In this document: piece by piece, positions 2,933 to 31,515 of the stretch
Numbering within the stretch: position 1 is the stretch's first letter
Layout of the letters: each line of letters starts with the position of its first letter
From: Gemmatimonas sp.
GTDB lineage: Bacteria > Gemmatimonadota > Gemmatimonadetes > Gemmatimonadales > Gemmatimonadaceae
Direction of reading: 5' to 3'
NCBI RefSeq assembly: GCF_027531815.1
Contig: NZ_JAPZSK010000009.1
Location: 1-64,000, forward strand
DNA: 64,000 bases
The notes under the pieces: generated by a model
Seen by the model: only the letters and a program-made list of their open reading frames with translations
What the model was told of the DNA's origin: nothing
Database searches by the model: none
Position numbers and translations under genes: made by a program

Positions 2933-4060
2933 TTAGAGCGCCGCCAGTGGCTGCGTCGCCGGCACGAGGGCCGGAACCCCCGCCGACGGCGCCCCGCCCG
3001 TCGCCACCCCCGGACGTGCGCGCACCACCCGGTTCCGCCCCTCGGCCTTGGCCACGTACAGCGCCGCGTCCGCCCGGGTCAGCCACTCCGACGGCTCCTC
3101 ACCGGGCGCCAGCTCCGCGCACCCGAACGACGCCGTGACCACCCCGCCCGGCGACGTGAGCTGGGACGCCAGGAGCGCGCGTAGCTCCTCCGCCATCCGC
3201 GCCGCCCCTTCCAGCGGCGTGTGCCGCAGCAGCAGCACGAACTCCTCGCCGCCATAGCGGAACAGCTGGTCCGCGTCGCGGATGCGCGACCGCACCAGTC
3301 GCGTCAGTTCCACCAGCAGCTGGTCCCCCACCTCATGGCCGTGCCGGTCGTTCACGGCCTTGAAGTGGTCGACGTCCAGCAGCACCAGGCTGGCCTGTTC
3401 CCGCTGCCGGGCCAGCTGCCGACGGGCATGGGAGAGCGCTTCGGTCAGCGCGCGCCGGTTCCCCGTACCGGTCAGCGGATCACTCGTGGCGAGCCGCTCG
3501 ATCTCGCGCTGCTTCTGCTCCACCTCGGTCACCAGCGCGATCATCAGCCCCACTGTCCAGCTGGCTGCCACCAGCAGCACCACCAGCTGGACTACCGGCG
3601 CCCGCAGCACCACTGCCGTGAGTACCCCGAGCACCGCCAGGTTCACCGCCGCCATCAGCGTCGCCGTGCGACGCCCGAAGATCACGAAATAGGTGACCAG
3701 GCAGGGAAACACCCACGCAGCCACGGTGTCGCGCTCCATGAGCTGCGTGACCACCGAACCCATGAACGGGACGACGGCGATCGCCCACCCCAGCATTCTC
3801 AGCCGCTTCGCCCGACGCAGCCCCACCGCGAGCGCGAAACACACGGCGGCAATGGAGAGGTTGAACAGCGCCCGCGTATGCGCCCCGGCACTCCACCGGA
3901 AGGCCGCCAGCGGCAGCATCAGTGCCGCGCAGCCGGCGGCAATGAAGAACAGAACCTTGATGCGCAGCCGATCCTCGTCCGCCACACCGGCGGGCCGTGG
4001 CGCGCCGTCCGGAGCGAGCGGCGCAGTGTGTTCGGACGCGGGGAACGAAGAGGGGATCAC
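2933..4060 (-). CDS. Membrane-anchored GGDEF diguanylate cyclase
   Basis: Predicted to make cyclic di-GMP from two GTP at the inner membrane. About six hydrophobic segments fill the first 190 residues (for example VLFFIAAGCAALMLPL and VVQLVVLLVAASWTVGLMIA). A short coiled linker ending in EIERLATSDPLTGTGNRR leads into a complete GGDEF domain: DVDHFKAVNDRHGH, then the active-site motif GGEEF in RYGGEEFVLLL, so catalytic activity is expected. RIRD lies upstream at the position of the RxxD inhibitory site. The GTG start at 4060 is chosen because the frame upstream lacks family-like sequence and runs into IS-associated DNA; an ATG at 4243 is the alternative. The gene is bracketed by two IS91 fragments and has no operon partner. 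Confidence 0.87.
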   Translation of the reverse strand: MIPSSFPASEHTAPLAPDGAPRPAGVADEDRLRIKVLFFIAAGCAALMLPLAAFRWSAGAHTRALFNLSIAAVCFALAVGLRRAKRLRMLGWAIAVVPFMGSVVTQLMERDTVAAWVFPCLVTYFVIFGRRTATLMAAVNLAVLGVLTAVVLRAPVVQLVVLLVAASWTVGLMIALVTEVEQKQREIERLATSDPLTGTGNRRALTEALSHARRQLARQREQASLVLLDVDHFKAVNDRHGHEVGDQLLVELTRLVRSRIRDADQLFRYGGEEFVLLLRHTPLEGAARMAEELRALLASQLTSPGGVVTASFGCAELAPGEEPSEWLTRADAALYVAKAEGRNRVVRARPGVATGGAPSAGVPALVPATQPLAAL

Positions 4061-8915: not shown

Positions 8916-11900
8916 CTACCGCTTCACCTCCCGCGTGTTGTCCCCCGGGTTGCGGTCGATCAGCAGGGAGTAGGGATCGATCCCCGCGCGTGTGGGCGGC
9001 TTCGGCACCACGAAGGTGTGCCGGCTCATCCCCGTCGTGACCTTCACGCGCCGGATGGCCAGCGGCCGCCCGAGCCGCGCACCGGACTCGGGCGCGTCGA
9101 ACACTCCCACATCCACGTAGTCCGCCATCGGGATCGCGGTCTCGTTCCCCAGCGAGTCGGCGCGGAACTTCTTCGCCGTGGCCACCACGGTCACCTCGTA
9201 CTGCCCATCGGCACGCTGGCGACTGGTCGCGCTGTCCGCCCGCACGTCCCACAGGGTGATCGTGTCGAAGTAGTCGGTGAGGGCATAGCGCAGCGAGTCC
9301 GGCGTGGCCGCGGTCAGGTGCCGCATGAGGTCGAACGTCGTCGCGTACGGGGGGCCGGTGAAGCGCCCCTCGTCGAGGTACGCGCGAATGGCCCGGTGCA
9401 GCGTCGCCTCACCAATGAGCTCCCGCAGCGCGAAGAGCGCGAGCGAGCCCTTCTGGTACCACACGTACGACTCGCGATCCACCCGCGTGAGCGGGCGCTC
9501 GCTGCGGGTCTCCGACGCGCGCCCGCGCAGGTAGCGGTCGAGCTCCGACCGCAGGAACTTCTGCGTGAACGGCAGCCCGTGCCTGCGCGCGGTCGCCACG
9601 AGGGCTGCGTACTCCGACAGCGCTTCCGACAGCGCCTGCGCCCCCTCCACGTCGGCGGGCATGCGCTGGTACGGGAACCACTGGTGCGCGATCTCGTGCG
9701 CGGTCACGAAGTACGGCAGGTCGGTATCCTCCACGTCGGTGCTGTCCACGCGCGCGACGAAGCCGATCCCCTCCGAGTAGGGCACCGTGTTCGGGAACGA
9801 CTGCGCGAACCCCTGATACCGGGGGAACTCCACGATGCGCAACTGCCGGTGCTGGTAGGGCCCGAACTCCTGCGTGTAGAGCGCCAGCGACGCCTGCGAC
9901 GCCTCGATCATGCGCGCCACGTTGAAGCGGTGGGCGGGATGGTGATACACCTCGATGGGCACCTGCCCCCACTTGCCCCGCGTCACGGTCCATCGCGCCG
10001 AGAGCACCGCGAAGAAGTTGGGCATCGGGGCGTCCATCACGTAGCGGAAGTACCGGCGCCCGTCCGCCGTCCACTCCCGCTCGAGGTAGCCGGGCGCCAT
10101 CGCGATCTGGTCGGGGTCGGTGCTCACGGTGGCGTCGAACGCCACGAAGTCGGCGTCGGCGGTGAAGCTCTGGCGCTGCAGCCCGGCCACATCGGTGCGC
10201 GGGAGCGCACGACGCGTTGGGGGCAGGCCGTACTTCTTTCGCAGTTCGTCGCTGCCGAGTTCGCCCCCCTGGCTGTAGCCAAGCGTCGGGAACCAGTCGC
10301 GGTTGAGGAAGGTGCCGTTCTCGACCAGCGAGCGGTCGGGGGCCCCGTTGGGGAAGCCGCGCGCGGCGAGGCGCTGGACGACGTGCAGGCGCAACGTGTC
10401 ACCCGGCGCCAAGGGCTGCGCCAGGCGCAGCAGCCGGACCCCGAACGCGGTGTCGGCGGCGAGGAGGGTGGCCCCCCGGTCGAAGACGAGCGAATCGAGC
10501 GTCACGGCGAGCCCCGGCGCGTCGCTCGCGACGTTCACCAGCACGCTGTCGAGCGCGCGGTCGGTGCGGTTGACCATGGTGTAGCGGGTCGAGAGCCGCG
10601 CCGTGCGCGCGGTCGGGGCGAGGTCCACGGCGAGGCTCGTCGCCACGACCTTCGGCACGCGAAGCGCCTCGAGCGGCCGCCAGCGGCGCTCGTACTCCAC
10701 CTGTCGCCGTTCGGTGCTCTTCCGCGACTCGTACCGGTTGAGGACGTTCGCGTTGTAGAAGAAGGTGCCGCCGAAGGCCGCCATGCCGAACACGCCACCG
10801 GCCGTGGCCACGCGGGCCGGCCGGCGGAAGCGGGTCGCGAGCCGCACGCCGAGCGGCGCGGCCGCGGTCCCGCGCGGCCACGCCACGTACGCCACCGCGA
10901 GCAGCACCGCCGCGAGCGAGAGCGAGTATCCGTGCAGCGTCACCAGCGCCGGCAGCACGTCGCCCAGCCCATTGAGGTCGGTCCAGGTGAAGTCGGGCGA
11001 CGTCCCCACCTGCAGCAGCTGGTGTGTGTACCCGAGGTTGCTCAGCGCGATGTTGGCCACGAAGACGAGGATGACAACCACGTGCCCGATCGCCTTGCGC
11101 GGCACGAGCGCCTGCGCGAGGAACGCGAGCGCCGTCATCGCGATCCACCCCGGGAAGTCGTAGGGATACGTGTGCCACAAGTACACCGGCACGTCCACCA
11201 CGGGAAAGCCCTTGAGCAGGGGCACGGCCATCCCGGCGAGCATCACCGCCGTCGCATACGCGAACAGGACACCGAGCATGGCCGTGTACTTGCCGAGCAG
11301 CACGGCGGCGGTGGGCACGGGCGTCGCATCCGCGACCTGGTCGGCGCGGAGCTGGCGCTCGCGCCAGACCAGTTCCCCGGCGTAGAACGTCAGCAGCACG
11401 ATCATGAACAGCGCGTTGCCCCCGATCACGCTCTCCGACACGATCCAGCTCATCGGCCAGCTGCGGCTGATGCCGCTCTGGTCGGCGAACCACGCGTTCA
11501 TGATGGTGTTGATCATCCCGATCGCCGCGATCGCGAGGAACGGGACCGACCGGATCATGGCCGTGGCCTGGAAGCGGGTCACGTCCCACCACGCCGTCCC
11601 GAGCGACGGCGCGCGCCGCCGCCCGGTCGCGGCGGCCGGTGCGCTCGAGGGCACCGGGACCGGCACCGCGCCGCTCGCGGCCGTCGCGGCCGGTGCCGCC
11701 TTGCGGCGCCGCCCGGTGAGGGGCGCCCCGACTTCGAGCCGCGTGAACCGGAACGCGACCGCAAGCAGCACGGCGCCGATCGCCGCCCAGAGGGCACGGT
11801 TCGCGAGCAGGAAGCTGCCCAGCGGCAGCAGCCGGGTGTTGCGCTCGGCAGGCGTCCAGTAGCGCGTCTCGAGGCTGATCGAGCGGATGGCGAACGGATC

Positions 11901-12524
11901 GACCAGGTTCGCGATCTGGTCGTAATCCAGCGTGCGGATGAGATTGGCCGCAATGGAGTAGCCGACCAGCAGCAGGATTCCGGCGACATACACGGTGAAC
12001 GCACTGCGGGTGAGCGTGCCCGTCGTGAAGATCAGCGCACTCAGGAAGAACACCCCAGGCACGCCGATCACCAGAAAGGGCTGCACGTAATCCCAGACCC
12101 GGATCGCCTGCACCGTCTCGGGGTTCACCCACGGCATGGCGGTGCCCAGCAGCGCTCCCACGGGCAGCGCCGCGAACACCAGCAGCATCGCGGCGAAGGC
12201 GGCGAGGTACTTGGCGCCGAGGTAGCCGCGCCGCGTGAGTCGCGTGGTGAAGAGCAGCTCGTGGACGCCAACGTCCACGTCGCGGAGCACGGTCGTTCCC
12301 ACGAGGGCACTGGTGATGATCTGCCCGATCGCGAGCATGATGCCGTACATCTGCGCGAGCGAATAGGGGCTGTTCTTCTTGACTTTCCCGAGCGACTCCC
12401 CGATCAGGATCGCGTCGGTGCTGATCGCAAAGAAGGCCAGCAGGAACATGATGGCCACGTAGAGCCACGTGACGGGGCGACGGAAGTGGCTCCGCAGTTC
12501 GAAGGCGAGGAGGTGGCCGAACAT
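8916..12524 (-). CDS. ABC-2 type permease fused to an M1-family metallopeptidase
   Basis: Protein of 1202 residues. The N-terminal half holds two sets of transmembrane helices of the ABC-2 type (MFGHLLAFELRSHFRRPVTW onward, and a second set from about residue 300 to 560), separated by an Ala-rich linker. From about residue 600 a periplasmic M1 peptidase module follows, with zinc motif HEIAHQW near residue 941 and the third ligand Glu in ALSEALSEY. The usual GxMEN exopeptidase motif is not seen; FAQSFPNTVPYSE stands in its place. The start codon overlaps the stop of the upstream ATPase gene (ATGA), so the two form a transporter. The transported substrate and the use of the peptidase are unknown. 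Confidence 0.88.
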   Translation of the reverse strand: MFGHLLAFELRSHFRRPVTWLYVAIMFLLAFFAISTDAILIGESLGKVKKNSPYSLAQMYGIMLAIGQIITSALVGTTVLRDVDVGVHELLFTTRLTRRGYLGAKYLAAFAAMLLVFAALPVGALLGTAMPWVNPETVQAIRVWDYVQPFLVIGVPGVFFLSALIFTTGTLTRSAFTVYVAGILLLVGYSIAANLIRTLDYDQIANLVDPFAIRSISLETRYWTPAERNTRLLPLGSFLLANRALWAAIGAVLLAVAFRFTRLEVGAPLTGRRRKAAPAATAASGAVPVPVPSSAPAAATGRRRAPSLGTAWWDVTRFQATAMIRSVPFLAIAAIGMINTIMNAWFADQSGISRSWPMSWIVSESVIGGNALFMIVLLTFYAGELVWRERQLRADQVADATPVPTAAVLLGKYTAMLGVLFAYATAVMLAGMAVPLLKGFPVVDVPVYLWHTYPYDFPGWIAMTALAFLAQALVPRKAIGHVVVILVFVANIALSNLGYTHQLLQVGTSPDFTWTDLNGLGDVLPALVTLHGYSLSLAAVLLAVAYVAWPRGTAAAPLGVRLATRFRRPARVATAGGVFGMAAFGGTFFYNANVLNRYESRKSTERRQVEYERRWRPLEALRVPKVVATSLAVDLAPTARTARLSTRYTMVNRTDRALDSVLVNVASDAPGLAVTLDSLVFDRGATLLAADTAFGVRLLRLAQPLAPGDTLRLHVVQRLAARGFPNGAPDRSLVENGTFLNRDWFPTLGYSQGGELGSDELRKKYGLPPTRRALPRTDVAGLQRQSFTADADFVAFDATVSTDPDQIAMAPGYLEREWTADGRRYFRYVMDAPMPNFFAVLSARWTVTRGKWGQVPIEVYHHPAHRFNVARMIEASQASLALYTQEFGPYQHRQLRIVEFPRYQGFAQSFPNTVPYSEGIGFVARVDSTDVEDTDLPYFVTAHEIAHQWFPYQRMPADVEGAQALSEALSEYAALVATARRHGLPFTQKFLRSELDRYLRGRASETRSERPLTRVDRESYVWYQKGSLALFALRELIGEATLHRAIRAYLDEGRFTGPPYATTFDLMRHLTAATPDSLRYALTDYFDTITLWDVRADSATSRQRADGQYEVTVVATAKKFRADSLGNETAIPMADYVDVGVFDAPESGARLGRPLAIRRVKVTTGMSRHTFVVPKPPTRAGIDPYSLLIDRNPGDNTREVKR

Positions 12525-18702: not shown

Positions 18703-19308
18703 ATGTTCAATTCGCTTCGCGCGCGGCTCTCCCCGCGCCTGGCCCGCACGCTGCTGTTCGTCGGCGCTGCCGGACTGGCGCTGGGCACCGCCGCGTGTAC
18801 CTCCGACGGGCCGACCAGCCTGCCCTCGCAAACGGCCAGCTTCAACAAGGCGGCGGGTGGCAACGGTGGCCTGGCCACAGAAGTGACGGCGCTGGCGTGG
18901 ACGAAGCCCGTCAAAGAACGAACGGCGTCGGCCGTGATTGGCAGGGCTGGCGGTGTGCTCCGCATTCCGAGCGGCGCGCGTCTGGTCGTACCCGCGGGTG
19001 CCGTCAGCGCCAACGTCACGTTCCGCGTCACGCAGGTTGCCGGTTCGATCGTGGCCTACGACTTCGAGCCGCACGGCATCACCTTCGCGGTGCCGCTGAC
19101 GCTCGAGCAGCCGATCAACGGTACGAACTTCGCAGGCTTCACTAACCCGAAGGTTCAGGGCGCGTATTTCAAGGACGTGAAGCAGCTCAACGATGCCACT
19201 GGCAAGGCCATTGTCGACGAGTTCCGACCGACCCTGCTCTCGATCGACAAGAAGTGGATCCGGTTCTCGGTCGATCACTTCTCCGGTTACATCGTGGCGA
19301 TGGACTAA
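18703..19308 (+). CDS. ZU5-type domain lipoprotein
   Basis: Exported lipoprotein of 201 residues. The N-terminus has basic residues, a hydrophobic core LLFVGAAGLALGTAAC and a lipobox Cys at about residue 32. From residue 70 the sequence reads GRAGGVLRIPSGARLVVPAG followed by AVSANVTFRVTQV. This is the ZU5 pattern (GGxLxxP, then a VPxGA turn), continued by YDFEPHGITFAVPLTLEQPI and a final strand-rich FSVDHFSGYIV. Such proteins are common outer-surface proteins in Gemmatimonadota; their role, probably protein-protein contact, is not established. The ATG at 18703 is chosen because it starts the signal peptide. Confidence 0.75.
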   Translation: MFNSLRARLSPRLARTLLFVGAAGLALGTAACTSDGPTSLPSQTASFNKAAGGNGGLATEVTALAWTKPVKERTASAVIGRAGGVLRIPSGARLVVPAGAVSANVTFRVTQVAGSIVAYDFEPHGITFAVPLTLEQPINGTNFAGFTNPKVQGAYFKDVKQLNDATGKAIVDEFRPTLLSIDKKWIRFSVDHFSGYIVAMD

Positions 19309-19850: not shown

Positions 19851-22800
19851 GTGAGCCGCCAGGCGGAGACGCGACGCCCGAAGCTGGCCCTGTTGGCCGA
19901 CGCGCCCCTGGTGCCGGTCACCTCGAGCGAGGGCGAGCTCCTGCTCGAGGAAGGACAGGCTGCCGAACGACGCGGGCAGCGCGCGGAGGCCCGGGCCCTG
20001 TACGAACGGGCGCTCGCGTCGCTCCGCACCGAAGCCGACGGACGACGGGCCTCGATGATCCTCCGCTGGATCGCCCGCACGCATGTAGGCGACGCACAGA
20101 TGGACGCGGCGCTCGAATGCCTGAACGCCGCGGTCACGATGGCCGAGGCCTGTGGCGACGAAAGCGCCGCCGGCAGTGCCATCAACATTCAGGCGGTCGT
20201 GCACTGGCAGCTGGGCGACCTCGATGAGGCCGAGCGCCTGTACCTCACCGCGCGGACGCGCGCGCTCCGGGCGGGCGATGCGAAGCTGGCCGCGATGACC
20301 GCGCAGAACCTCGGGGTCATCGCCAACGTGCGCGGTGATCTCGCAGAGGCTCGCCGGCACTACGAGGCGAGCCTCGAGGAGTATCGCGCGCTCGGATCGG
20401 CGAAGGACATGATCGGCGCCCTCAACAACCTGGGGCTGCTGCACACCCACGCGCAGGACTGGGCGGCGGCGGAGTATGCCTTCGGGGAGGCGGTCCGGAT
20501 CAGCGACGTCCAGCATGACACGAGCGCGCGCATGCTGCTCGATGTGAACCTCGCGGAGATGTGGGTGGCGCGGCAGGACTTCGGGCGCGCTCACGCCGCC
20601 GTCCAGCACGCCATGGACCTCGCCGTTCACTCCGGCGACGGCAGCTCCATGGGACAGGTGAGCAAGCTCCTGGGGGTCATCGCGCGCGAAACGGGGGACC
20701 CGACGGACGCCGAGGAGCACTTCCGTCGCGCCGAGGAGATCGCGGAGACGCGTCAGGACGTACTGTTGCAGGCCGAGGTGGCCCGTGAGGCCGGTGAGCT
20801 CGCCCGGCGCAAAGGGCAGAACAAGGACGTCCTCCGGCACCTGAATCGGGCCCATCGCCTGTTCGGGCAGCTGCGCGCCCGCCGGGACCTGGCCGACATT
20901 GACCGACGCAATAGCCAGCTCGAGGCCGAGTTCCTGCAGGTGGCGCGGCGCTGGGGTGAATCGATCGAAGCCAAGGACCGCTACACGCAGGGCCATTGCC
21001 TGCGCGTGGCCGACCTGGCCTGCGCGATGGCCGCGGATCTGGGGATGGCGAATCAGGACCTCTTCTGGTTCCGCATCGGCGCGCTGCTGCATGACGTGGG
21101 CAAGCTTGTCATTCCCGAAGAGGTGCTGAACAAGGCGGGGAAGCTGACCGACGCCGAGTGGGCGCTCATGCGGAGCCATACCACGGCGGGGGTGGAGATC
21201 CTCGCCGGCGTGGAGTTCCCGTGGGACGTGCTGCCCATCATTCGCTCGCATCATGAGAAGTGGGACGGTACCGGCTACCCCGATCAGCTCCGGGGCGAGG
21301 CGATTCCGCTCGTTGCCCGCATCCTGTGCGTGGCCGATGTCTACGATGCGCTGACCAGCACACGCAGCTACAAGCGGGCGTTCACGCACGAGGAGGCGGT
21401 CGACATCATGCGGCGCGATGTCGGCACAATGTTCGACCCGGCCGTCTTCACGTCGTTCGAACGGGTGGTCTCAACGCGGGCGGCCCGTGCGGAGCCTGAG
21501 GTCGCGGCCCCGGTGTCCCACGAGCCCCCGCCGACACCGGCGCTGGTCGCGGAGCTCGACGATCTGACGGGGCTGCCGCTGCGTCGGGCCTTTCGCGAGG
21601 CGGCCGAGCGGGTGCTGGACGCGCGTCGGACCACCGAACGCCCGGTGTCGCTGCTGGTCATGGACATCGATCACTTCAAGCTGGTGAATGATGCCTTCGG
21701 GCACCTGCAGGGGGACGATACGCTCCGGATGGTCGCGGCGCTGCTGCAGCAGGTCGCGCGCGCCAGCGACTTCATCGCCCGGTATGCGGGTGACGAGCTG
21801 GTGGCGCTCCTGCCGGGGAGCACCCTCGAGGAGGCAGTCGCCGTGGCGGAGCGGCTGCGGGCGGTCGTGGCGGGCGCGTCCTGCGCCCGACGCGATGGGT
21901 CGCCGGATCCGGTGCGGGTGACGCTGTCGATCGGCGTCGCCTCGGCCCCGGCCCATGGGCAATCGCTCGACCAATTGTTCGCCGCCGCCGACGGGGCGCT
22001 GTACAGCGCGAAGCGCCGCGGTCGCAATGCGGTCGCCGTCGCCAGCTCCGTGACTGCCGCGCGTGATGCCGTGCTACTCCTCGACGGCTTCGTTGGCCGC
22101 CACGCGGAGCGGCAGCGGCTGCGCCGCTTGCTCGACGCGGCCGCCAGCGGCGCGCCGCAGGTGGTCGCGGTCGTGGGCGAAGCGGGGATTGGCAAGTCAA
22201 CGCTGTTGCGCCAGCTCGGTCCGGAGATCAGCGTGCGCGCCGGGGCACTGCTGGTGGGACGCTGCCTCGAGGCCGATGTGCGGCCCCCCTACGGACCGTG
22301 GGCCGACGTGATCGGGGCCATCCACGCCCTCGGCATCGTGCCGACGCGCGCGTGGCGCGAGCTCGGTCGGCTGGTGCCGGCGCTGGGCGCGGCGACCGAT
22401 CGGTCGGAGACCGGCGCGGCACCACCAGCAGCCCGCTATACGCTCATGCACGAGATCGAGGAGTATCTCACCGCGGCGGCCGCCGAGCGGCCGTTGGTGA
22501 TCGTGCTCGACGATATGCACTGGGGCGACCGCGAAACATGGGACGTGCTCGAGCTGCTGGTGCCACGCCTGTCCGGTCAACGCCTGCTGGTCTGCCTCGC
22601 CCTGCGCCGCGAGGATATCCCGGCGGACATCACGCAACGGCGGGCCCGCCTGTCGCGGCACGAGTGCGTCAGCGAACTGACGCTGGGTCGCCTGTCGCGC
22701 GAGGAACTCGAGCACTGGTTGCGCACCGCCCTCGGCGGTCGCCCGCTCGATTCGGCACTGATCGACTATGTGGCGGAACACACCGAGGGGAACCCGCTGT

Positions 22801-24686
22801 TTGCCGTGCAGGCGCTGCAGATGCTGCTCGAGGAGGGCGGGCTGTCATTCGACGATGGGGGATGGCGGTATCACCCCCACCCGGACCGACCGATGCCGAC
22901 TGCCGTGCGCGAGTTGCTCACCCGGCGGCTTGCGCGATTGTCCGATGCCGCGCGGGAGGTGCTCACTGCCGCCGCGATTGTCGGCAGCCGGTTCGACGCC
23001 GACCTACTGCTCGCGGCCACCACGCGCGACGAGGAGGCGGTCATCGATGCCCTCGACGAAGGTGTGCGTACGCAAGTGCTCACGTCGTGCGCCCCATACG
23101 GCCTCACCACGTACGAGTTCACGCACGGGCTGCTGGCGGACGTGCTCCGCCGTTCAGGGAATCCGCTGCGCATGCGGCGCATCCACGAGCGCGTGGCGCG
23201 GCTGCTCGCCTCCCGCCCGGCGTCGGCCCCCGCCGACATCGCCGCCCACTTCGACAAGGCGGGGTGTGGCCCCGAGGCGCTCAGTCATGCCCTGCGCGCT
23301 GCCGATCGGGCCATGGCGGTGTATGCCTTCGATGCCGCGGCGACCTGCCTGACGCTGGCTGCACGGCACACGGTGACCCCCGTGGAGTGCGCCGAAGTGG
23401 CCTGGCGCCAGGCGACGCTCGAGGAAACCGTGGGACGCTACGAGGACGCTGAGCGACGCTGCGGGTCGCTGCTCACCGACCACGAAGGGGGCGCGGCAGA
23501 GATCGGCGTCGCCCGAAAGGCCCGCCGCATGGTGCAGCGCCTGCGCCTGCTGCGTGGTGCCTCGGCGGCCGACGTGTGTGCCAGCTGCGAGCAGCTGTAC
23601 GACGCGGCGCTCGCCGCGGAGGATCACGCGGAGGCGGTCACGCTGCTGATGATGCTGTCGCAGGTACACAGCCGGTTGGGAAACGATGCCGAAGCCAAGC
23701 GCACGGCGGACGCGGCGGTGACCGTAGCCCGCACGTTGGGCGACACCGCCCTGCTGGCGGACGCCATCATGCGCCAGGGCTCTGCCGTGCTGACCACGGC
23801 CCCGGCCGATACCGTGCGCCACTATCGCCAGGCACTCGACCTGTTCCGGCAGCGTCAGGACCGGCGCGGTCAGTTGCGCGGCCAGATCAACATCGGCGTG
23901 GCCTGTGACCGGGCCGGAAATCACCCGGCCGCCGAGCTGGCCTACGCCAGCGCGCTCGAGATCGGCACCGAGGTGAAGGCCGCCGACCTCACGGCGCTGG
24001 CGTCCATGAACCTCGGCGTGCTCCTCATGAAGCTGGGGCGCTTTGAGGAGGCGAGCCACCGTTTCGAGCAGACGTTACGGAGCATGAGCGCCGCGCATCA
24101 CGAACCACACCGGCTGGGTGCGCTGTACAATCTCGCGCACCTGGCGCGCGAGCGCGGCGACGCAGCCGGCGCCACCGAGCTGTACAGCGCGGCGATCCAG
24201 CTGGCGCGCCAGCTCGGGCAGCTCGACATTCACGCGGGGGCGACCTGCGGCATCGGGCTCGCCGAGCTGACCCTCGGGCACGTTGCCTCGGCCCGTGCAC
24301 AGCTGCAGGCCGCGCAGGCGATTCTCGATGGGCGTGAGCAGTGGTTCCAGGGACGCGAACTGTTCGTGGCCCTCGCGGTACGGCTGCAGCTCGCGGCGGG
24401 GGCAGCCGACGACGCGGTGCAGGTGCTCTGCGACGCGCTGGCAGTCGCCGATCGATTCGATTCGTATGCCGCCGTCTGGCTCGCCGCTGAGTGCGCCACG
24501 GCTATGCACACCGTCGGTACGCCCCCGGACCGGTGGCAGGAGGTTGTCGCCCGGTACACCGTGAACGCGAGGGCGCTGGGATATGCGCCGCTCCTGGACC
24601 GACTGGTGGGGACCCAGTCGGCACAACGGGGGCCCGAGGGAGGTCTGGCGGACAGCGGATCCTCGTCGGGGCGCTTCGCGGCGTAG
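19851..24686 (+). CDS. TPR / HD-GYP / GGDEF / AAA ATPase / TPR signalling protein
   Basis: Giant cytoplasmic protein of 1611 residues starting at a GTG. Residues 20-360 are TPR-like helical repeats. HD-GYP (366-550) carries LLHDVGK near 412 and HHEKWDGTGYP near 466, so c-di-GMP hydrolysis is expected. GGDEF (565-730) has DIDHFKLVNDAFGH, an RASD inhibitory site and an active-site variant YAGDEL near 645. A MalT/STAND-like ATPase follows, with GRHAERQRLRR, Walker A GEAGIGKST near 775 and Walker B LVIVLDDMHWGD near 885. About 600 residues of further TPR repeats finish the protein. The order puts HD-GYP before GGDEF, the reverse of most dual enzymes. It stands alone and may be an ATP-gated c-di-GMP switch; that role is inference. 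Confidence 0.9.
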   Translation: MSRQAETRRPKLALLADAPLVPVTSSEGELLLEEGQAAERRGQRAEARALYERALASLRTEADGRRASMILRWIARTHVGDAQMDAALECLNAAVTMAEACGDESAAGSAINIQAVVHWQLGDLDEAERLYLTARTRALRAGDAKLAAMTAQNLGVIANVRGDLAEARRHYEASLEEYRALGSAKDMIGALNNLGLLHTHAQDWAAAEYAFGEAVRISDVQHDTSARMLLDVNLAEMWVARQDFGRAHAAVQHAMDLAVHSGDGSSMGQVSKLLGVIARETGDPTDAEEHFRRAEEIAETRQDVLLQAEVAREAGELARRKGQNKDVLRHLNRAHRLFGQLRARRDLADIDRRNSQLEAEFLQVARRWGESIEAKDRYTQGHCLRVADLACAMAADLGMANQDLFWFRIGALLHDVGKLVIPEEVLNKAGKLTDAEWALMRSHTTAGVEILAGVEFPWDVLPIIRSHHEKWDGTGYPDQLRGEAIPLVARILCVADVYDALTSTRSYKRAFTHEEAVDIMRRDVGTMFDPAVFTSFERVVSTRAARAEPEVAAPVSHEPPPTPALVAELDDLTGLPLRRAFREAAERVLDARRTTERPVSLLVMDIDHFKLVNDAFGHLQGDDTLRMVAALLQQVARASDFIARYAGDELVALLPGSTLEEAVAVAERLRAVVAGASCARRDGSPDPVRVTLSIGVASAPAHGQSLDQLFAAADGALYSAKRRGRNAVAVASSVTAARDAVLLLDGFVGRHAERQRLRRLLDAAASGAPQVVAVVGEAGIGKSTLLRQLGPEISVRAGALLVGRCLEADVRPPYGPWADVIGAIHALGIVPTRAWRELGRLVPALGAATDRSETGAAPPAARYTLMHEIEEYLTAAAAERPLVIVLDDMHWGDRETWDVLELLVPRLSGQRLLVCLALRREDIPADITQRRARLSRHECVSELTLGRLSREELEHWLRTALGGRPLDSALIDYVAEHTEGNPLFAVQALQMLLEEGGLSFDDGGWRYHPHPDRPMPTAVRELLTRRLARLSDAAREVLTAAAIVGSRFDADLLLAATTRDEEAVIDALDEGVRTQVLTSCAPYGLTTYEFTHGLLADVLRRSGNPLRMRRIHERVARLLASRPASAPADIAAHFDKAGCGPEALSHALRAADRAMAVYAFDAAATCLTLAARHTVTPVECAEVAWRQATLEETVGRYEDAERRCGSLLTDHEGGAAEIGVARKARRMVQRLRLLRGASAADVCASCEQLYDAALAAEDHAEAVTLLMMLSQVHSRLGNDAEAKRTADAAVTVARTLGDTALLADAIMRQGSAVLTTAPADTVRHYRQALDLFRQRQDRRGQLRGQINIGVACDRAGNHPAAELAYASALEIGTEVKAADLTALASMNLGVLLMKLGRFEEASHRFEQTLRSMSAAHHEPHRLGALYNLAHLARERGDAAGATELYSAAIQLARQLGQLDIHAGATCGIGLAELTLGHVASARAQLQAAQAILDGREQWFQGRELFVALAVRLQLAAGAADDAVQVLCDALAVADRFDSYAAVWLAAECATAMHTVGTPPDRWQEVVARYTVNARALGYAPLLDRLVGTQSAQRGPEGGLADSGSSSGRFAA

Positions 24687-24697
24687 CCCCAGGGCGG

Positions 24698-24733
24698 CAC
24701 CGCGCCCCGGCACCGCGCCCCGGCACCGCGCCT
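24698..24733. repeat. Tandem 13-bp units between convergent genes
   Basis: GCACCGCGCCCCG occurs twice in succession, followed by a partial third copy (GCACCGCGCC). It fills the gap between the giant signalling gene and the opposing permease gene. Confidence 0.85.
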
Positions 24734-25577
24734 ACCGTGCGGTCAGCCGGTCGGCTAGGCGGGCCACCCCGAGCACGGTGAACACCAGCAGGAGCGCCGG
24801 CGCCGTCGCAACCCACCACGCGCTCCCCAGGTAGGCCACGCCGTCCTGCAGGATGGTGCCCCAGCTGGGCGTAGGCGGACGGACCCCGAGCCCGAGGAAG
24901 GAGACGCCCGCCTCCACCGCCAGCAGGTCAGCGAGCAGCGTGGCGCTGGCGGCGGCCACGACCTGGGTGAGATGCGGGGCCACGTGACGAACCAGCAGAC
25001 GTTGCGGTGGCACGCCGAGTGCCTCGGCGGCGCGCACGAATTCGCGGGCGCGCACCGTGCGCGCTTCGGTGTAGATCACCTGCGCGAGCGCCGTCCAGCT
25101 ACCGGCACCAAGGAGAAGCGCCAGCATTGGTACCGACGGATGCGGGACCACCAGCATGATGGCCAGCAGCACCAGTTTCCGTGGTATGGCCCGCAGCGCA
25201 TCGGCCACGTCCATCAACACCCCACCAACGACAGGCCCGCTCGCGGCGGCGATCCCTCCCCAAACCATCGCCAGGAGCGCGGCGACTACTGTGGCCAACC
25301 CGCTCACCGCGAGCGACACGCGGCCCCCGTACAGCAGGCGGCTCAGCAGGTCGCGCGAGTAGGGATCGGTGCCCAGCAGATGCACGGGACTGGGCGGGGC
25401 ATTCTTGAGCGCCACGATGTCCAGCTGCTGCGTGGGGTCGTAGGGGGCGATCCACGGGGCGGCGAGGGCAGACAGGACGATCAGCAACAGCAGCGCCGTC
25501 GACAGCGGCAGGCGCGGAGCCCGCCATCGCGGGCGCGCCAGCGGCGCTGCGTACCGGGCACGCAGTACGACGCTCAT
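24732..25577 (-). CDS. Peptide-type ABC importer permease, DppC-like
   Basis: Inner-membrane permease of 281 residues of the DppC/OppC family. It has an N-terminal helix (TALLLLIVLSALAAPWIAPY), the conserved LLGTDPYSRDLLSRLLYGGR and SL motif, about five further helices, and the EAA-type loop REFVRAAEALGVPPQRLLVRH. The C-terminal VEAGVSFLGLGVRPPTPSWG is diagnostic for the family. The start at 25577 overlaps the stop of the upstream DppB-like gene (ATGA), so the two permeases are translationally coupled. The substrate class (di- or oligopeptides, or nickel) is not determined by the permease sequence. Confidence 0.9.
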   Translation of the reverse strand: MSVVLRARYAAPLARPRWRAPRLPLSTALLLLIVLSALAAPWIAPYDPTQQLDIVALKNAPPSPVHLLGTDPYSRDLLSRLLYGGRVSLAVSGLATVVAALLAMVWGGIAAASGPVVGGVLMDVADALRAIPRKLVLLAIMLVVPHPSVPMLALLLGAGSWTALAQVIYTEARTVRAREFVRAAEALGVPPQRLLVRHVAPHLTQVVAAASATLLADLLAVEAGVSFLGLGVRPPTPSWGTILQDGVAYLGSAWWVATAPALLLVFTVLGVARLADRLTAR

Positions 25578-26563
25578 GATCGGCGTACGTCGGCGGCGGT
25601 ACGCAGCCGCGGATCGAGCCGCGACGCCAGCAGCTCGGTGAGCAGCGATCCCGCCGCCACGGCGGCCGACACGAGAATGACGATACCGGCCACCAGCGGC
25701 GCGTCGCGCAGCGTCACGGCCCGCACCAGCAGTGACCCCATGCCGGGCCACGAGAAGAGTGTTTCCACGACGATGGTGCCCCCGGCCACGACCGGGAGCA
25801 TCGTCCCCAGCAGCGCCACGCTCCCCGCCATCGAGGGGCGCAGCACATGCTGCAGCAGCAGCCGCAACGGGGTAACGCCTCGCGCCTGCGCCGCCTGCAC
25901 GTGGGGCTCACCCGCCGTGGCGCGCACCGCCTGGCGCTGCTGCCGCACGATCACGGCGCTCCACGACAGCGCCAGCGCGCTGGCCGGCAGCACCACATGC
26001 CAGCCCCGATCGCGCCAGCGGGCCATCGCGGAGCCGGTGAGCGCCACCAGCGGATCGTCGAGTCCACCGGCGGGAAAGAGGCCAGCATGCAAGGCGAAGA
26101 CGGCCAGCAGCGCGGTGCCAAGCACGACCTCGGGCACGGCATAGCCGGCGGTGAGCGCCGTGGCGGCCAGACGGACCCCTCGGCTCTCCGGGCGCCAGCC
26201 GTGCAGCGTACCGACGCTTACCCCGAGGAGGGCCGCAAGAAGCAGGGCGGTGCCGGAGAGCAGGACCGTCGCCGGCAGCGCGTCGCCCATGACGTCGATG
26301 ACCGGTCGGCCTTCACTGCTGGAGACGCCCAGCCGGCCACGCAGCACGTCGCCGACATACCGGGCGAGCTGCACCGGCAGCGGCTGCTGCAGCCCCAGCT
26401 GCTGAGCGAGCACCGCCCGCTCGCTCGCCGTGCGCCCGCGCCCCTCCACCGATCCGGTCGTGGCATCCCCCGGGGCCAGACGCAGCAGCGCGAAGCTGGC
26501 CGTCGTCGCCAGCAGGACGACCAGCACTGATCGGCTCAGCCGCCGAATGATCGACACGCGCAT
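25574..26563 (-). CDS. Peptide-type ABC importer permease, DppB-like
   Basis: Permease of 329 residues of the DppB/OppB family. The N-terminal helix (RSVLVVLLATTASFALLRLA) is followed by PGD, then a periplasmic segment with QLGLQQPLPVQLARYVGDVL, the usual LGLDxPLxxQY region. The coupling loop is AAQARGVTPLRLLLQHVLRP, and VVETLFSWPGMGSLL is the family hallmark near the C-terminus. It is the first gene of the coupled pair. About 100 bp separate its start from the divergent substrate-binding lipoprotein gene, so both transcripts may be controlled from the same interval. Confidence 0.9.
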   Translation of the reverse strand: MRVSIIRRLSRSVLVVLLATTASFALLRLAPGDATTGSVEGRGRTASERAVLAQQLGLQQPLPVQLARYVGDVLRGRLGVSSSEGRPVIDVMGDALPATVLLSGTALLLAALLGVSVGTLHGWRPESRGVRLAATALTAGYAVPEVVLGTALLAVFALHAGLFPAGGLDDPLVALTGSAMARWRDRGWHVVLPASALALSWSAVIVRQQRQAVRATAGEPHVQAAQARGVTPLRLLLQHVLRPSMAGSVALLGTMLPVVAGGTIVVETLFSWPGMGSLLVRAVTLRDAPLVAGIVILVSAAVAAGSLLTELLASRLDPRLRTAADVRRS

Positions 26564-26664: not shown

Positions 26665-28347
26665 ATGAAGATGTCCGTTCGCACGCGCCTCGTTCACGCG
26701 GTCCCCGCGCCCAGCGCGCTCCTGCTCGGCCTCCTGCTCGCCGCCGCGTGCGGTGAACCGGCCGCGGACGACGCGACCGCGGATCTGGCCAGCACGGCCG
26801 GCGTCGTGATCGCCACGGCCGCCGATGCCGATGCCCTGGTGCCGCCGCTCGTCGCCACGACGGCGGGCAAGCAGGTCGTCGATCTGCTCTTCGATCATCT
26901 CGCCGAGCCGACGTCAACCCGCGTCCGGACCGATGGCGACGCCGGCTTCGCGCCGCGCCTCGCCCACCGTTGGCTGTGGTCGACCGACTCGCTGTCGATT
27001 GCCTTCGAGATCGATTCGGCGGCGCGCTGGCACGACGGGCGCCCGGTGACCGCGGCCGATGTGCAGTTCTCGTTCGCGCTCTACACCGATCCAGCCGTGG
27101 GGTCGATGCATGCGCGCGGCTTCGACGGCATCGATTCCGTGACCGTGCGGGACGCCCGCACCGCGGTGGCGTGGTGGCACCGGCGGCACCCCGAGCAGTT
27201 CTTTCAGCTCGTCTACAATCTCGCCATCATGCCGAAGCACCTGCTCGACACCGTGCCGCGCGACGGCCTGCTGGCGTCGGCGTACGCGAGCGCCCCGGTG
27301 GGGAGCGGGCGCTACCGATTCGGCACGTGGGAGCGCAAGCAGCGGCTGGTGCTGGTGGCCGACAGCGTCAACTATCGCGGGCGCCCGCGCTTCGATCGGG
27401 TGATCTGGTCGGTGGCGCCCGATCCCAACACGGCCACGATGGCGGTCATCACCGGTCAGGCCGATGTACTGGAGGTGTTGCGCGGTGATGCGGTCGGCAA
27501 GGTGGCGGCGACGCCGACGCTCAAGGCCGTCGAATACGGGAGCCTCGATTACGGCTATCTCGCGCTCAATCACCGGACGCCGCGTGGGCGGTCGTCGCTG
27601 TTCGCCGATCGGGCGTTGCGGCTCGCGTTGACGCAAGCCATCGATCGTGGCGCCGTGGTGCGGAATGCGCTGGATTCGCTGGGGCGGGTAGCGCTGGGGC
27701 CCTTCACGCGCGCCGATGTCACGGTCGACACGACGGCGCCCGGCATCGCCTTCGATTCCGTGGCCGCAGGCCGGGCCCTCGACTCGCTCGGGTGGCGTCG
27801 GGTGGCTGGGAATCCGGTGCGGATGAAGAACGGCCGCCCGCTGCGCTTCGCCATTCTGGTGCCCGCCTCGAGCGGCACCCGCAAGAAGCTGGCGGTGCTG
27901 CTCCAGGGCCAGCTCGCCGCGGCCGGCGTGGGCGTGGAGATCGAGCCGGTGGACGCGGGCGTGTTCGCCAGCCGGCTGCAGCAGGGCGACTTCGAGGCCG
28001 CGCTCAACGTGTGGCGGAACGATCCCAGCCCCTCGGCGCTGCGGCAGGCCTGGGGCGCGCCCAAGGGGGATGATGTCGGGGCCAACTTCGGGCGGTATGC
28101 GAGCGCGGCGTTCGACGCCACGATCGACAGCGCGATCGCGACCTTCGAGCCGGCCGCGCGCACGGCGCTGTTTCGACGCGCCCACGCCCTCCTCGTGGCC
28201 GATGCGCCAGCGATCTGGCTTTACGAGCCGCGCAACCTGGCCGCCGTGCACGCCCGGCTGGTGCCGGTGGGAGTGCGCCCCGATGCCTGGCTGGCGCAGC
28301 TCGGTGACTGGCGAGCCGATGGAACGCGGACAACGGCGCTGCGGTAG
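26665..28347 (+). CDS. ABC importer substrate-binding lipoprotein (SBP_bac_5)
   Basis: Periplasmic binding protein of 560 residues for the adjacent peptide-type importer. The signal ends in a lipobox LLAAAC near residue 29. The family signature is seen in PPLVATTAGKQVVDLLFDHL, then DSAARWHDGRPVTAADVQFS near residue 125, and FADRALRLALTQAIDRGAVV near 320. The sequence VWRNDPSPSALRQAWGAPKG in the second lobe matches the hinge region before the C-terminal helices. The start at 26665 is chosen as the first Met before the signal peptide. It is divergent from the permeases; no ATPase genes are nearby. The ligand is unknown. Confidence 0.88.
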   Translation: MKMSVRTRLVHAVPAPSALLLGLLLAAACGEPAADDATADLASTAGVVIATAADADALVPPLVATTAGKQVVDLLFDHLAEPTSTRVRTDGDAGFAPRLAHRWLWSTDSLSIAFEIDSAARWHDGRPVTAADVQFSFALYTDPAVGSMHARGFDGIDSVTVRDARTAVAWWHRRHPEQFFQLVYNLAIMPKHLLDTVPRDGLLASAYASAPVGSGRYRFGTWERKQRLVLVADSVNYRGRPRFDRVIWSVAPDPNTATMAVITGQADVLEVLRGDAVGKVAATPTLKAVEYGSLDYGYLALNHRTPRGRSSLFADRALRLALTQAIDRGAVVRNALDSLGRVALGPFTRADVTVDTTAPGIAFDSVAAGRALDSLGWRRVAGNPVRMKNGRPLRFAILVPASSGTRKKLAVLLQGQLAAAGVGVEIEPVDAGVFASRLQQGDFEAALNVWRNDPSPSALRQAWGAPKGDDVGANFGRYASAAFDATIDSAIATFEPAARTALFRRAHALLVADAPAIWLYEPRNLAAVHARLVPVGVRPDAWLAQLGDWRADGTRTTALR

Positions 28348-30060: not shown

Positions 30061-31515
30061 TCAGGCGGGTCCGGTCTCCACTTGTGGTGCGACTGACGCC
30101 AGCGGCACGAAGTCCGCCTTCTCGCGCACCCCGCAGTCGGGACAGGGCCAATCGGCGGGCAGGGCGGCCCACGGCGTACCGACCGGGTACCCTTCGCGCG
30201 GGGCACCGCGCCGTGGGGCGTACACATAGCCGCATCCCGGGCAGCCGTATGCGTCCGTGTGCGGCGGCGTGTGCGCTGACGTGTGTGACGAAGTGTGCGG
30301 CGTCATGTGCTCCGCGCTGCCGGCAGCTCGTGCCCCGAGGTCGCGCAGTGACGGCGCCGTGCCGGACGAGGACGGGTAGCGCGCCAGCAGTCGCGCCCGG
30401 GCGTGTGGCGCAAGGTTGGCGAGACGTACGTCACCGCCATAGTGCGCGAGTACCCGCGGATCGACGACGCGAAACCACAGCGGCGGGATCAGGGCCAGCA
30501 GGATCATGCCGGCGTAGCCGGCGGGGAGCACCGGCGCCTCCGCGTGATCGCGCAGCGCCTGATAGCGCCGGGTGGGGTGGGCATGGTGGTCGCTGTGCCG
30601 CTGCAGGTGATACAGCAGCAGGTTGGTCGTGAGGTGATTGGCATTCCACGAGTGACGCGGGGCCACCTGCTCGTACCGCTCGCGTCCCGGGGCCCCGACG
30701 CGCTGGCGCAGCAGGCCATAGTGTTCGAGATAGTTCACCGCTTCGAGCAGGGTGAACCCGATCACGCCCTGCAGCAGGAGGTACGGCAGCACCCCGACGC
30801 CCAGCCAGAGGACCATGGCCGTCCAGAGCGCGGCGGACATCAGCCACGCGTGCAGCACGTGGTTCCCCGGCCGAAACGGGTGCTGGCCCAGGCGCGCATG
30901 GCGTCGCGCTTCGAGCTGCCACGCACTGCGCAGTGATCCGACCACGGTGCGTGGCCAGAACCGGTAGAACGACTCCCCCAGCCGGCTGCTGGCCGGGTCG
31001 TCCGGCGTGGCGACGCGCACGTGATGGCCGCGGTTGTGCTCGATGTAGAAGTGGCCGTACCAGCACTGGGCGAGAGCGATCTTGGACAGCCAGCGCTCCA
31101 CACCTTCCTTTTTGTGGCCGAGTTCGTGGGCGGTGTTGATGCCGAGGCCGCCGATGCAACCCACCGTGACGGAGAGGCCGAGGCATTCGGCGACCGAGAG
31201 GTCACCGCTGGCGATGGCGCGGAAGGCAACGACGAAGCCGGCGTACTGCAACGGCAGAAAGAGATACGTGACCCACCGGTAGTAGCGGTCTCCCTCGAGC
31301 GCGGCCGTCATCTCTGCCGGCGGGTTGGCCCGGTCGAGGCCCACGACGAGGTCGACCAGCGGGACCACGCCAAGCACGACCAGCGGGCCAAGCCAGAGCC
31401 AGAGGCTCGCACCGGTGACCGCGTGGAGCCCCAAGGCCAGAAACGGCAGGAGCGGCATGGCCAGCGCCATGGCCCAGAGATACCGCTTGTGATCGGTCCA
31501 GACGATCGGCGTCAT
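30061..31515 (-). CDS. alkB: Alkane 1-monooxygenase fused to C-terminal rubredoxin
   Basis: Integral membrane di-iron hydroxylase (484 residues) that oxidises the terminal carbon of alkanes with O2. The AlkB domain (residues 1-375) has the expected His boxes: HELGHKK near 130, EHNRGHH near 157, NYLEHYGL near 250 and QRHSDHHAHPTRRYQ near 305. After a His/Thr-rich linker (MTPHTSSHTSAHTPPHTD), the last 65 residues form a rubredoxin: CPGCGYVY then CPDCGVREKADF, with both CxxCG iron-binding pairs. The electron donor is therefore supplied in the same chain; rubredoxin reductase is not encoded nearby. It is divergent from a secreted FAD oxidoreductase, with 244 bp between starts. Confidence 0.9.
   Translation of the reverse strand: MTPIVWTDHKRYLWAMALAMPLLPFLALGLHAVTGASLWLWLGPLVVLGVVPLVDLVVGLDRANPPAEMTAALEGDRYYRWVTYLFLPLQYAGFVVAFRAIASGDLSVAECLGLSVTVGCIGGLGINTAHELGHKKEGVERWLSKIALAQCWYGHFYIEHNRGHHVRVATPDDPASSRLGESFYRFWPRTVVGSLRSAWQLEARRHARLGQHPFRPGNHVLHAWLMSAALWTAMVLWLGVGVLPYLLLQGVIGFTLLEAVNYLEHYGLLRQRVGAPGRERYEQVAPRHSWNANHLTTNLLLYHLQRHSDHHAHPTRRYQALRDHAEAPVLPAGYAGMILLALIPPLWFRVVDPRVLAHYGGDVRLANLAPHARARLLARYPSSSGTAPSLRDLGARAAGSAEHMTPHTSSHTSAHTPPHTDAYGCPGCGYVYAPRRGAPREGYPVGTPWAALPADWPCPDCGVREKADFVPLASVAPQVETGPA

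Follow-up and report, generated by a model that had tools for sequence, protein, structure and literature searches.

A 1611-residue protein encoded in a Gemmatimonas genome carries an HD-GYP phosphodiesterase domain, a GGDEF diguanylate cyclase domain and a STAND ATPase core between two TPR arrays, with conserved catalytic and switch residues, a STAND-TPR fold and recurrent gene partners. From these features we infer its activities, ATP dependence, direction of switching and signal, and we give even chances to the reading that the protein has both c-di-GMP activities and works as a STAND switch. How direction is chosen in hybrid proteins capable of both synthesis and breakdown of c-di-GMP is an old puzzle; if this reading is true, direction would be set by a mechanistically understood STAND switch, of the class of Apaf-1 and MalT, and the known outputs of STAND proteins would come to include two second-messenger enzymes that oppose each other. 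The co-inherited lipoprotein described below is an entry point to c-di-GMP signalling in Gemmatimonadota, a phylum on which we found almost no literature.

Domain architecture and integrity of the reading frame

The gene lies in a stretch of 64,000 nucleotides, here called the window. An earlier note on this DNA had described an open reading frame of 1611 residues with HD-GYP ahead of an AGDEL-type GGDEF domain with an I-site, and with TPR arrays on both ends; the frame stands with its coordinates unchanged, the order of the catalytic domains agrees with Pfam and motifs, and Pfam finds both arrays. The families recovered along the chain are, in order, TPR, HD_5, GGDEF, AAA_16 and MalT-like TPR, with TPR_12 matches in five stretches. 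The features are as follows.

19851–24686, + strand: hybrid c-di-GMP protein, 1611 aa, GTG start; TPR, HD-GYP, GGDEF, STAND ATPase, TPR
19935–20885, + strand: N-terminal TPR array, residues ~29–345; Pfam TPR_12; shared with stand-alone TPR-HD-GYP relatives
20946–21485, + strand: HD-GYP phosphodiesterase domain, residues 366–545; HD_5 at 372–532, 5e-39
21549–22055, + strand: GGDEF diguanylate cyclase domain, residues 567–735; Pfam GGDEF at 568–726, 3e-41
22083–22850, + strand: STAND nucleotide-binding domain; AAA_16 at 747–914, 1e-27; contains FVGRHAE
22851–23240, + strand: winged-helix part of the STAND core, residues ~1001–1130; AlphaFold model and Foldseek alignment to 6MFV
23241–24620, + strand: C-terminal TPR array, residues ~1131–1590; likely arm and sensor; Pfam TPR_MalT/TPR_12 and modelled helical hairpins

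An artefact or chance frame is excluded by the orthologues, by dN/dS and by a single-contig genome. In alignment, the GTG start adjoins the ATG start of an 88%-identical orthologue, and independent assemblies at 46–88% identity, one of which is the single-contig genome, carry the frame without interruption. Relative to two close orthologues, dN/dS is 0.09–0.24 for every domain, and all domains are under purifying selection; against two close relatives, constraint is looser only in the 21-residue linker between HD-GYP and GGDEF.

Two other classes of protein were considered and rejected. The 1611 residues include no transmembrane segment (maximum 19-residue mean hydropathy 1.45), which rules out a membrane receptor. 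Pfam finds no DNA-binding family, in agreement with the earlier note, and the sole winged helix is the STAND core's own, which rules out a transcription regulator.

The HD-GYP domain

The HD-GYP ligands are complete (H382, H414-D415, H443, H467-H468 and D496, with lysine K418), and both motifs are present (HDVGK at 414–418, GYP at 475–477). Among 34 complete homologues, the metal ligands and the lysine are identical in every one; two lack the GYP proline or have it out of register. The domain matches the solved structures 5z7c (3e-48) and 4mcw (2e-36), the closest being the cGAMP phosphodiesterase V-cGAP3 (5z7c), ahead of PmGH. The third metal in PmGH is held by glutamate E185, and a dinuclear site is the common HD-GYP case (PMC8177086). 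E185 aligns with Y378 in the window protein, which places it outside the trinuclear subgroup; a dinuclear enzyme is therefore expected, with c-di-GMP or cGAMP as its predicted substrate.

The GGDEF domain and the balance of the two activities

The GGDEF domain, with WspR and PleD structures among its top matches, keeps its AGDEL signature (residues 646–650, 21786–21800), D605, N613, D622 and a RASD I-site (residues 637–640, 21759–21770) exactly five residues ahead of the signature. Signatures of the AGDEF type can be active in diguanylate cyclases. N613 and D622 occupy the base-recognition positions nine residues apart, which we take to be the spacing of the guanine-recognition pair in PleD, so the expected product is c-di-GMP.

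The same aspartate bears on the possibility that the HD-GYP domain hydrolyses 3′,3′-cGAMP or pGpG, in which case the two halves would not oppose each other on one molecule. The rank of V-cGAP3 above PmGH and the expected dinuclear site both lean that way; however, the attached GGDEF domain has Asp at D622, not the Ser that cGAMP-making GGDEF enzymes carry at the equivalent position. Moreover, cGAMP specificity arises in different ways in different HD-GYPs and is unreadable from sequence (PMC8177086), and we regard this substrate assignment as quite improbable.

Across the 34 complete homologues, a signature of the form [AG]GDE[FLM] is retained in 31 and an RxxD I-site in 23. One subclade (G077, G083, G122c and G185c) has a degenerate GGDEF domain and keeps HD-GYP and STAND, and single GGDEF residues are lost in G020 and G012. 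Synthesis is thus not essential to the hybrid family, and since the GGDEF half decays in one subclade and HD-GYP never does, the two activities are unequally constrained. This pattern raises the possibility that the protein is effectively a phosphodiesterase, with HD-GYP as its output, GGDEF as mainly a GTP-sensing allosteric domain, and STAND gating hydrolysis. The invariant HD-GYP ligands (34 of 34), set against GGDEF decay in four to six homologues, argue for it, as do stand-alone TPR-HD-GYP relatives that have no GGDEF domain at all and share the lipoprotein partner. However, GGDEF is complete, I-site included, in the window's own lineage, where its dN/dS of 0.09–0.22 is in the same range as the 0.12 of HD-GYP, and we consider the phosphodiesterase reading doubtful, if well worth keeping in mind.

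Degenerate-GGDEF hybrids with intact HD-GYP and P-loop are found at L181:7135-11763, L185:6984-11690, L193:6975-11588 and L199:6876-11543. Their subclade is without lipoprotein and SBP neighbours, and a short protein starting MR-SLCPSLTEL is encoded near three of the four.

The STAND core

The nucleotide-binding domain contains a Walker A motif (GEAGIGKS, residues 776–783, 22176–22199), a Walker B motif (VIVLDD, 22497–22514) and the GxP motif of STAND proteins (EGNP, residues 979–982, 22785–22796). The Walker A lysine, K782, is present in all 34 complete homologues. The MalT-like TPR at residues 1319–1532 (Pfam, 3e-13) provides the superstructure-forming repeats expected of a STAND ATPase and is its likely sensor.

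An AlphaFold model of residues 738–1598, built with 32 sequences, has a mean pLDDT of 90.5. The suggestion that the ATPase resembles MalT and AfsR is supported by Foldseek, in which the best PDB match of the STAND half is the TPR-sensor STAND PH0952 (6MFV, E=5e-14), with Avs3 second and Apaf-1 lower. In VIA-align, more than 300 residues of the core align with the archaeal ATPases 2qen and 2fna (Z ~20), and the C-terminal TPR superhelix matches many others of its kind, among them Rap/NprR and LGN at Z 22–26, with LGN and APC/C scoring as high as Rap/NprR. A second model, of residues 345–1130 (pLDDT 76, pTM 0.50), shows the domains, not their arrangement, and leaves the mutual placement of HD-GYP, GGDEF and STAND unsettled.

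Despite the second rank of Avs3 by fold, an anti-phage STAND of the Avs type was rejected on the grounds of the second-messenger outputs of this protein and of neighbouring genes that belong to the envelope.

A lipoprotein partner and linked transporter genes

The functional unit is larger than the enzyme gene and adds a lipoprotein gene upstream and transporter genes downstream, partners that the earlier note had not mentioned.

18703–19308, + strand: ZU5-like lipoprotein, 201 aa; 543 bp upstream of the enzyme, same strand
24732–25577, − strand: OppC/DppC-type ABC permease; Pfam BPD_transp_1 and OppC_N; EAA loop kept
25574–26563, − strand: OppB/DppB-type ABC permease; Pfam BPD_transp_1; EAA loop kept
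26665–28347, + strand: SBP_bac_5 oligopeptide-type solute-binding lipoprotein; Pfam 1e-57, scanned with the longer start 26611

The family of the ZU5-like lipoprotein has an invariant Cys32 (lipobox) and a C-terminal HFSGY motif, and weak matches to Pfam ZU5 are found in 13 of 20 members. The gene is single-copy in the window's genome. Within the genus, strong matches occur in 11 of 11 genomes with the enzyme vs 0 of 19 without it (30 genomes; Fisher 1.8e-8, with genomes treated as independent and complete and shared ancestry ignored). Of 35 hybrids, 24 have a member of the lipoprotein family within 6 kb, often directly upstream on the same strand, and 33 of 42 members are within 7 kb of a gene of the enzyme's family. 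The lipoprotein gene is not always adjacent, lying 3.8–4.2 kb from the enzyme in several genomes; no lipoprotein was detected in G032, which has the enzyme, and six of the 35 hybrids lack every tested partner gene within 6 kb. The lipoprotein gene also accompanies stand-alone GGDEF-STAND-TPR genes and stand-alone TPR-HD-GYP genes, with gaps of mostly 14–77 bp in the other family of the same order in which the latter occur. The lipoprotein appears to be a dedicated, co-inherited partner of the enzyme and offers the strongest functional lead; it may tell the enzyme about the cell exterior.

Next to the Gemmatimonas hybrids, and to that of G032, are genes for the SBP_bac_5 lipoprotein and a pair of Opp-type permeases, with no ATPase gene among them. 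The SBP, permeases and enzyme run in one direction in several genomes (G032, G020, G008 and G011, with permease-enzyme gaps of 5–125 bp) and are convergent in others. An SBP_bac_5 gene is within 6 kb of 13 of the 35 hybrids; in further genera the SBP alone stands beside hybrids, and in G033 it overlaps a stand-alone TPR-HD-GYP gene by 4 bp. Because the EAA loops, read by eye, are kept and one Opp/Dpp (oligo_HPY) ATPase pair is encoded elsewhere in the window's genome, the linked SBP and permeases could possibly import using a shared ATPase.

Taken further, these genes could be read as part of an RRNPP-like system, in which an oligopeptide would enter through the linked SBP and permeases with the genome's unlinked Opp/Dpp ATPase pair, bind a TPR array and flip the enzyme; the lipoprotein might supply the peptide, just as enterococcal pheromones are supplied by lipoprotein signal peptides. 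Consistent with this are the import genes without a local ATPase, the single oligo_HPY pair elsewhere and the closeness in fold of Rap/NprR peptide-receptor TPRs to the C-terminal array (Z 23–25). However, TPR superhelices match generically, as LGN and APC/C illustrate, the transporter is linked in only 10–13 of 35 hybrids while the lipoprotein is the general partner, and the mature domain of the lipoprotein (HFSGY) shows conservation that a protein serving only to supply a peptide would not need. We therefore judge the RRNPP-like reading unlikely. Returning to the STAND switch, the secreted lipoprotein, together with the oligopeptide-binding protein and Opp-type permeases in Gemmatimonas, points to the envelope or the cell's surroundings as the most likely source of the signal, whether a peptide or the state of the envelope.

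At several loci, a sigma-54 activator ATPase with a Fis-type HTH abuts or overlaps TPR-HD-GYP genes (L043:6763-7752, L046:8725-9624, L187, L188, L189 and L191), and it also occurs near five hybrids. Elsewhere in the window are a second diguanylate cyclase with a weak MASE6 membrane domain (2933–3985, − strand); an ABC-2 membrane protein of 1202 aa that includes an M1 peptidase-like domain and adjoins an ABC ATPase (8916–12524, − strand); and a protein of the fatty acid desaturase type, with rubredoxin at its C terminus (30061–31515, − strand), presumably resembling AlkB-rubredoxin fusions. No RNA elements or tRNAs were found within the window.

Distribution and ancestry

We searched 298 Gemmatimonadota genomes with a GGDEF-AAA alignment and then read the loci. 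The five-part protein was found only in the window's own family, with 34 complete proteins in ten genera and up to three per genome. Orthologues in the window's genus are 50–88% identical over their full length, and one in another genus is 46% identical. A scan of genome contigs with the same kind of alignment was swamped by ordinary GGDEF domains and yielded one true relative, JAGWYS010000092.1; a plasmid search returned no place covering most of the query.

Partial forms also occur. TPR-HD-GYP proteins without the C-terminal half are found in another family of the same order. In the window's own family, some genomes encode TPR-HD-GYP or GGDEF-STAND-TPR as a gene standing alone. In a quick tree of the N-terminal half, stand-alone forms fall mostly outside the hybrids, with G034 inside; two of its rows labelled as solo are truncated, G011 by the contig end and G023 by a frame that stops 0.3 kb before the contig end. 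A quick tree of the STAND core separates the window's family from Acidobacteriota and Omnitrophota proteins; in it, GGDEF-STAND-TPR proteins that stand alone group into a single clade among the hybrids. Since the main subclades agree between the N-half and C-half trees, the two halves have travelled together. The simplest reading of these quick trees is that one fusion in the family was likely followed by a few losses.

In five stand-alone GGDEF-STAND-TPR proteins the GGDEF motif is gone, and so is the P-loop lysine, which is changed from K to T (L042:7879-10911, L197:7420-10161, L198:8292-11324, L200:8654-11590 and L201:8359-11334). A conserved gene with 'MKSGA' in its product lies near such forms, which are perhaps dead-enzyme scaffolds.

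Beyond Gemmatimonadota, fusions of GGDEF to this ATPase core were found in 15 of 237 genomes sampled from the phylum of an Omnitrophota genome; among 297 from the phylum of an Acidobacteria genome, about a dozen had them. According to Pfam, seven GGDEF-AAA proteins from outside Gemmatimonadota comprise three with HEAT repeats in place of the C-terminal TPRs, three with a kinase ahead of GGDEF and one plain GGDEF-AAA-TPR protein, and none has HD-GYP. The order GGDEF, AAA_16, HEAT is found at L251:994-5133 and L252:1096-5199 (Omnitrophota; small genomes) and at L258:2222-6514 (phylum of an Acidobacteria genome); kinase, GGDEF, AAA_16 and TPR form one chain at L255:1087-5277, L256:994-5238 and L257:1979-6211, all from the latter phylum. 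The phylum of a Thermoflexaceae (Chloroflexi) locus gave matches to AAA only, and the absence of GGDEF-STAND from 195 genomes of Archangium's phylum and 299 of Pseudomonas's carries little weight, having been obtained at a strict cut-off without a positive control.

Across samples of six phyla in all, the five-part order with HD-GYP was never seen outside one Gemmatimonadota family. Because GGDEF-STAND is found in the Omnitrophota and Acidobacteriota samples, with no HD-GYP in the seven proteins scanned, we regard it as a recurring module whose union with TPR-HD-GYP is particular to the window's family. The novelty proposed in the earlier note holds, as far as could be searched, for the whole architecture, which is absent from the papers we found, and does not extend to the GGDEF-STAND fusion itself.

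A proposed STAND switch between hydrolysis and synthesis

TPR-STANDs switch from an ADP-bound closed form to an ATP-bound open multimer (PMC6468293). By analogy, at rest the C-terminal TPR arm and sensor would keep the STAND core closed with ADP, the GGDEF domains would be unpaired and HD-GYP would hydrolyse c-di-GMP. An inducer at the TPRs would open the core, ATP would displace ADP, and the protomers would multimerise, pairing their GGDEF domains so that c-di-GMP is made and a phosphodiesterase is turned into a cyclase, the output of which the I-site would limit. The N-terminal TPR array could be a second regulatory or docking surface near HD-GYP.

We tentatively place this switch in a wider, lineage-specific system running from the envelope to c-di-GMP, a proposal that we hold with less confidence than the switch itself. 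In it, a secreted ZU5-like lipoprotein, accompanied in Gemmatimonas by the Opp-type SBP and permeases, would report to a cytoplasmic TPR receptor. That receptor would have been an HD-GYP enzyme first and been fused later with GGDEF-STAND. The result would be an ATP-licensed switch able to invert its own net c-di-GMP activity, possibly in response to a peptide signal.

Comparison with known systems

No paper describing this architecture or the enzyme-lipoprotein gene pair was found in the open-access literature, and several known systems share parts of it. GGDEF-EAL hybrids likewise combine synthesis and hydrolysis domains in one chain, whereas the window protein has HD-GYP in place of EAL, ahead of GGDEF, plus an ATPase core. 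GGDEF and HD-GYP were not observed in one protein in five alphaproteobacterial orders (PMC9756655). In the two-gene RcbA/RcbB system of Vibrio vulnificus, TPR domains repress and de-repress a GGDEF enzyme (PMC12282931); TPR control is thus common to both, but RcbA/RcbB lacks an ATPase and HD-GYP, and its partner is a TPR protein rather than a lipoprotein. RRNPP peptide receptors are alike in having a TPR sensor and nearby Opp-type import, a likeness of fold only, and contain neither c-di-GMP enzymes nor a STAND core.

Closer in their central part are the cyclase-AAA_16-TPR and TOMM kinase/cyclase fusions (TIGR03903), which also place a nucleotide cyclase ahead of an AAA_16/winged-helix core. 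The TIGR03903 model matches only the AAA/winged-helix part, residues 747–1166 (2.5e-44, 151.5 bits vs a cut-off of 705.75), and the window protein differs in having GGDEF rather than a class III cyclase domain, and HD-GYP in addition. The GGDEF-STAND-HEAT proteins of Omnitrophota and Acidobacteriota and the kinase-GGDEF-STAND-TPR proteins of Acidobacteriota share the GGDEF and AAA_16 core but are without HD-GYP and the N-terminal TPR array, and they are separate in the tree.

The TPR-STANDs MalT, PH0952 (6MFV) and AfsR share the nucleotide-binding domain with Walker A, Walker B and GxP motifs, the winged helix, and the TPR arm and sensor. The window protein adds a second, N-terminal TPR array, and its output, in contrast to the DNA-binding domain of MalT and AfsR, is a pair of c-di-GMP enzymes. 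The lipoprotein partner is one for which we found no description, and the enzyme belongs with STAND-regulated signalling enzymes.
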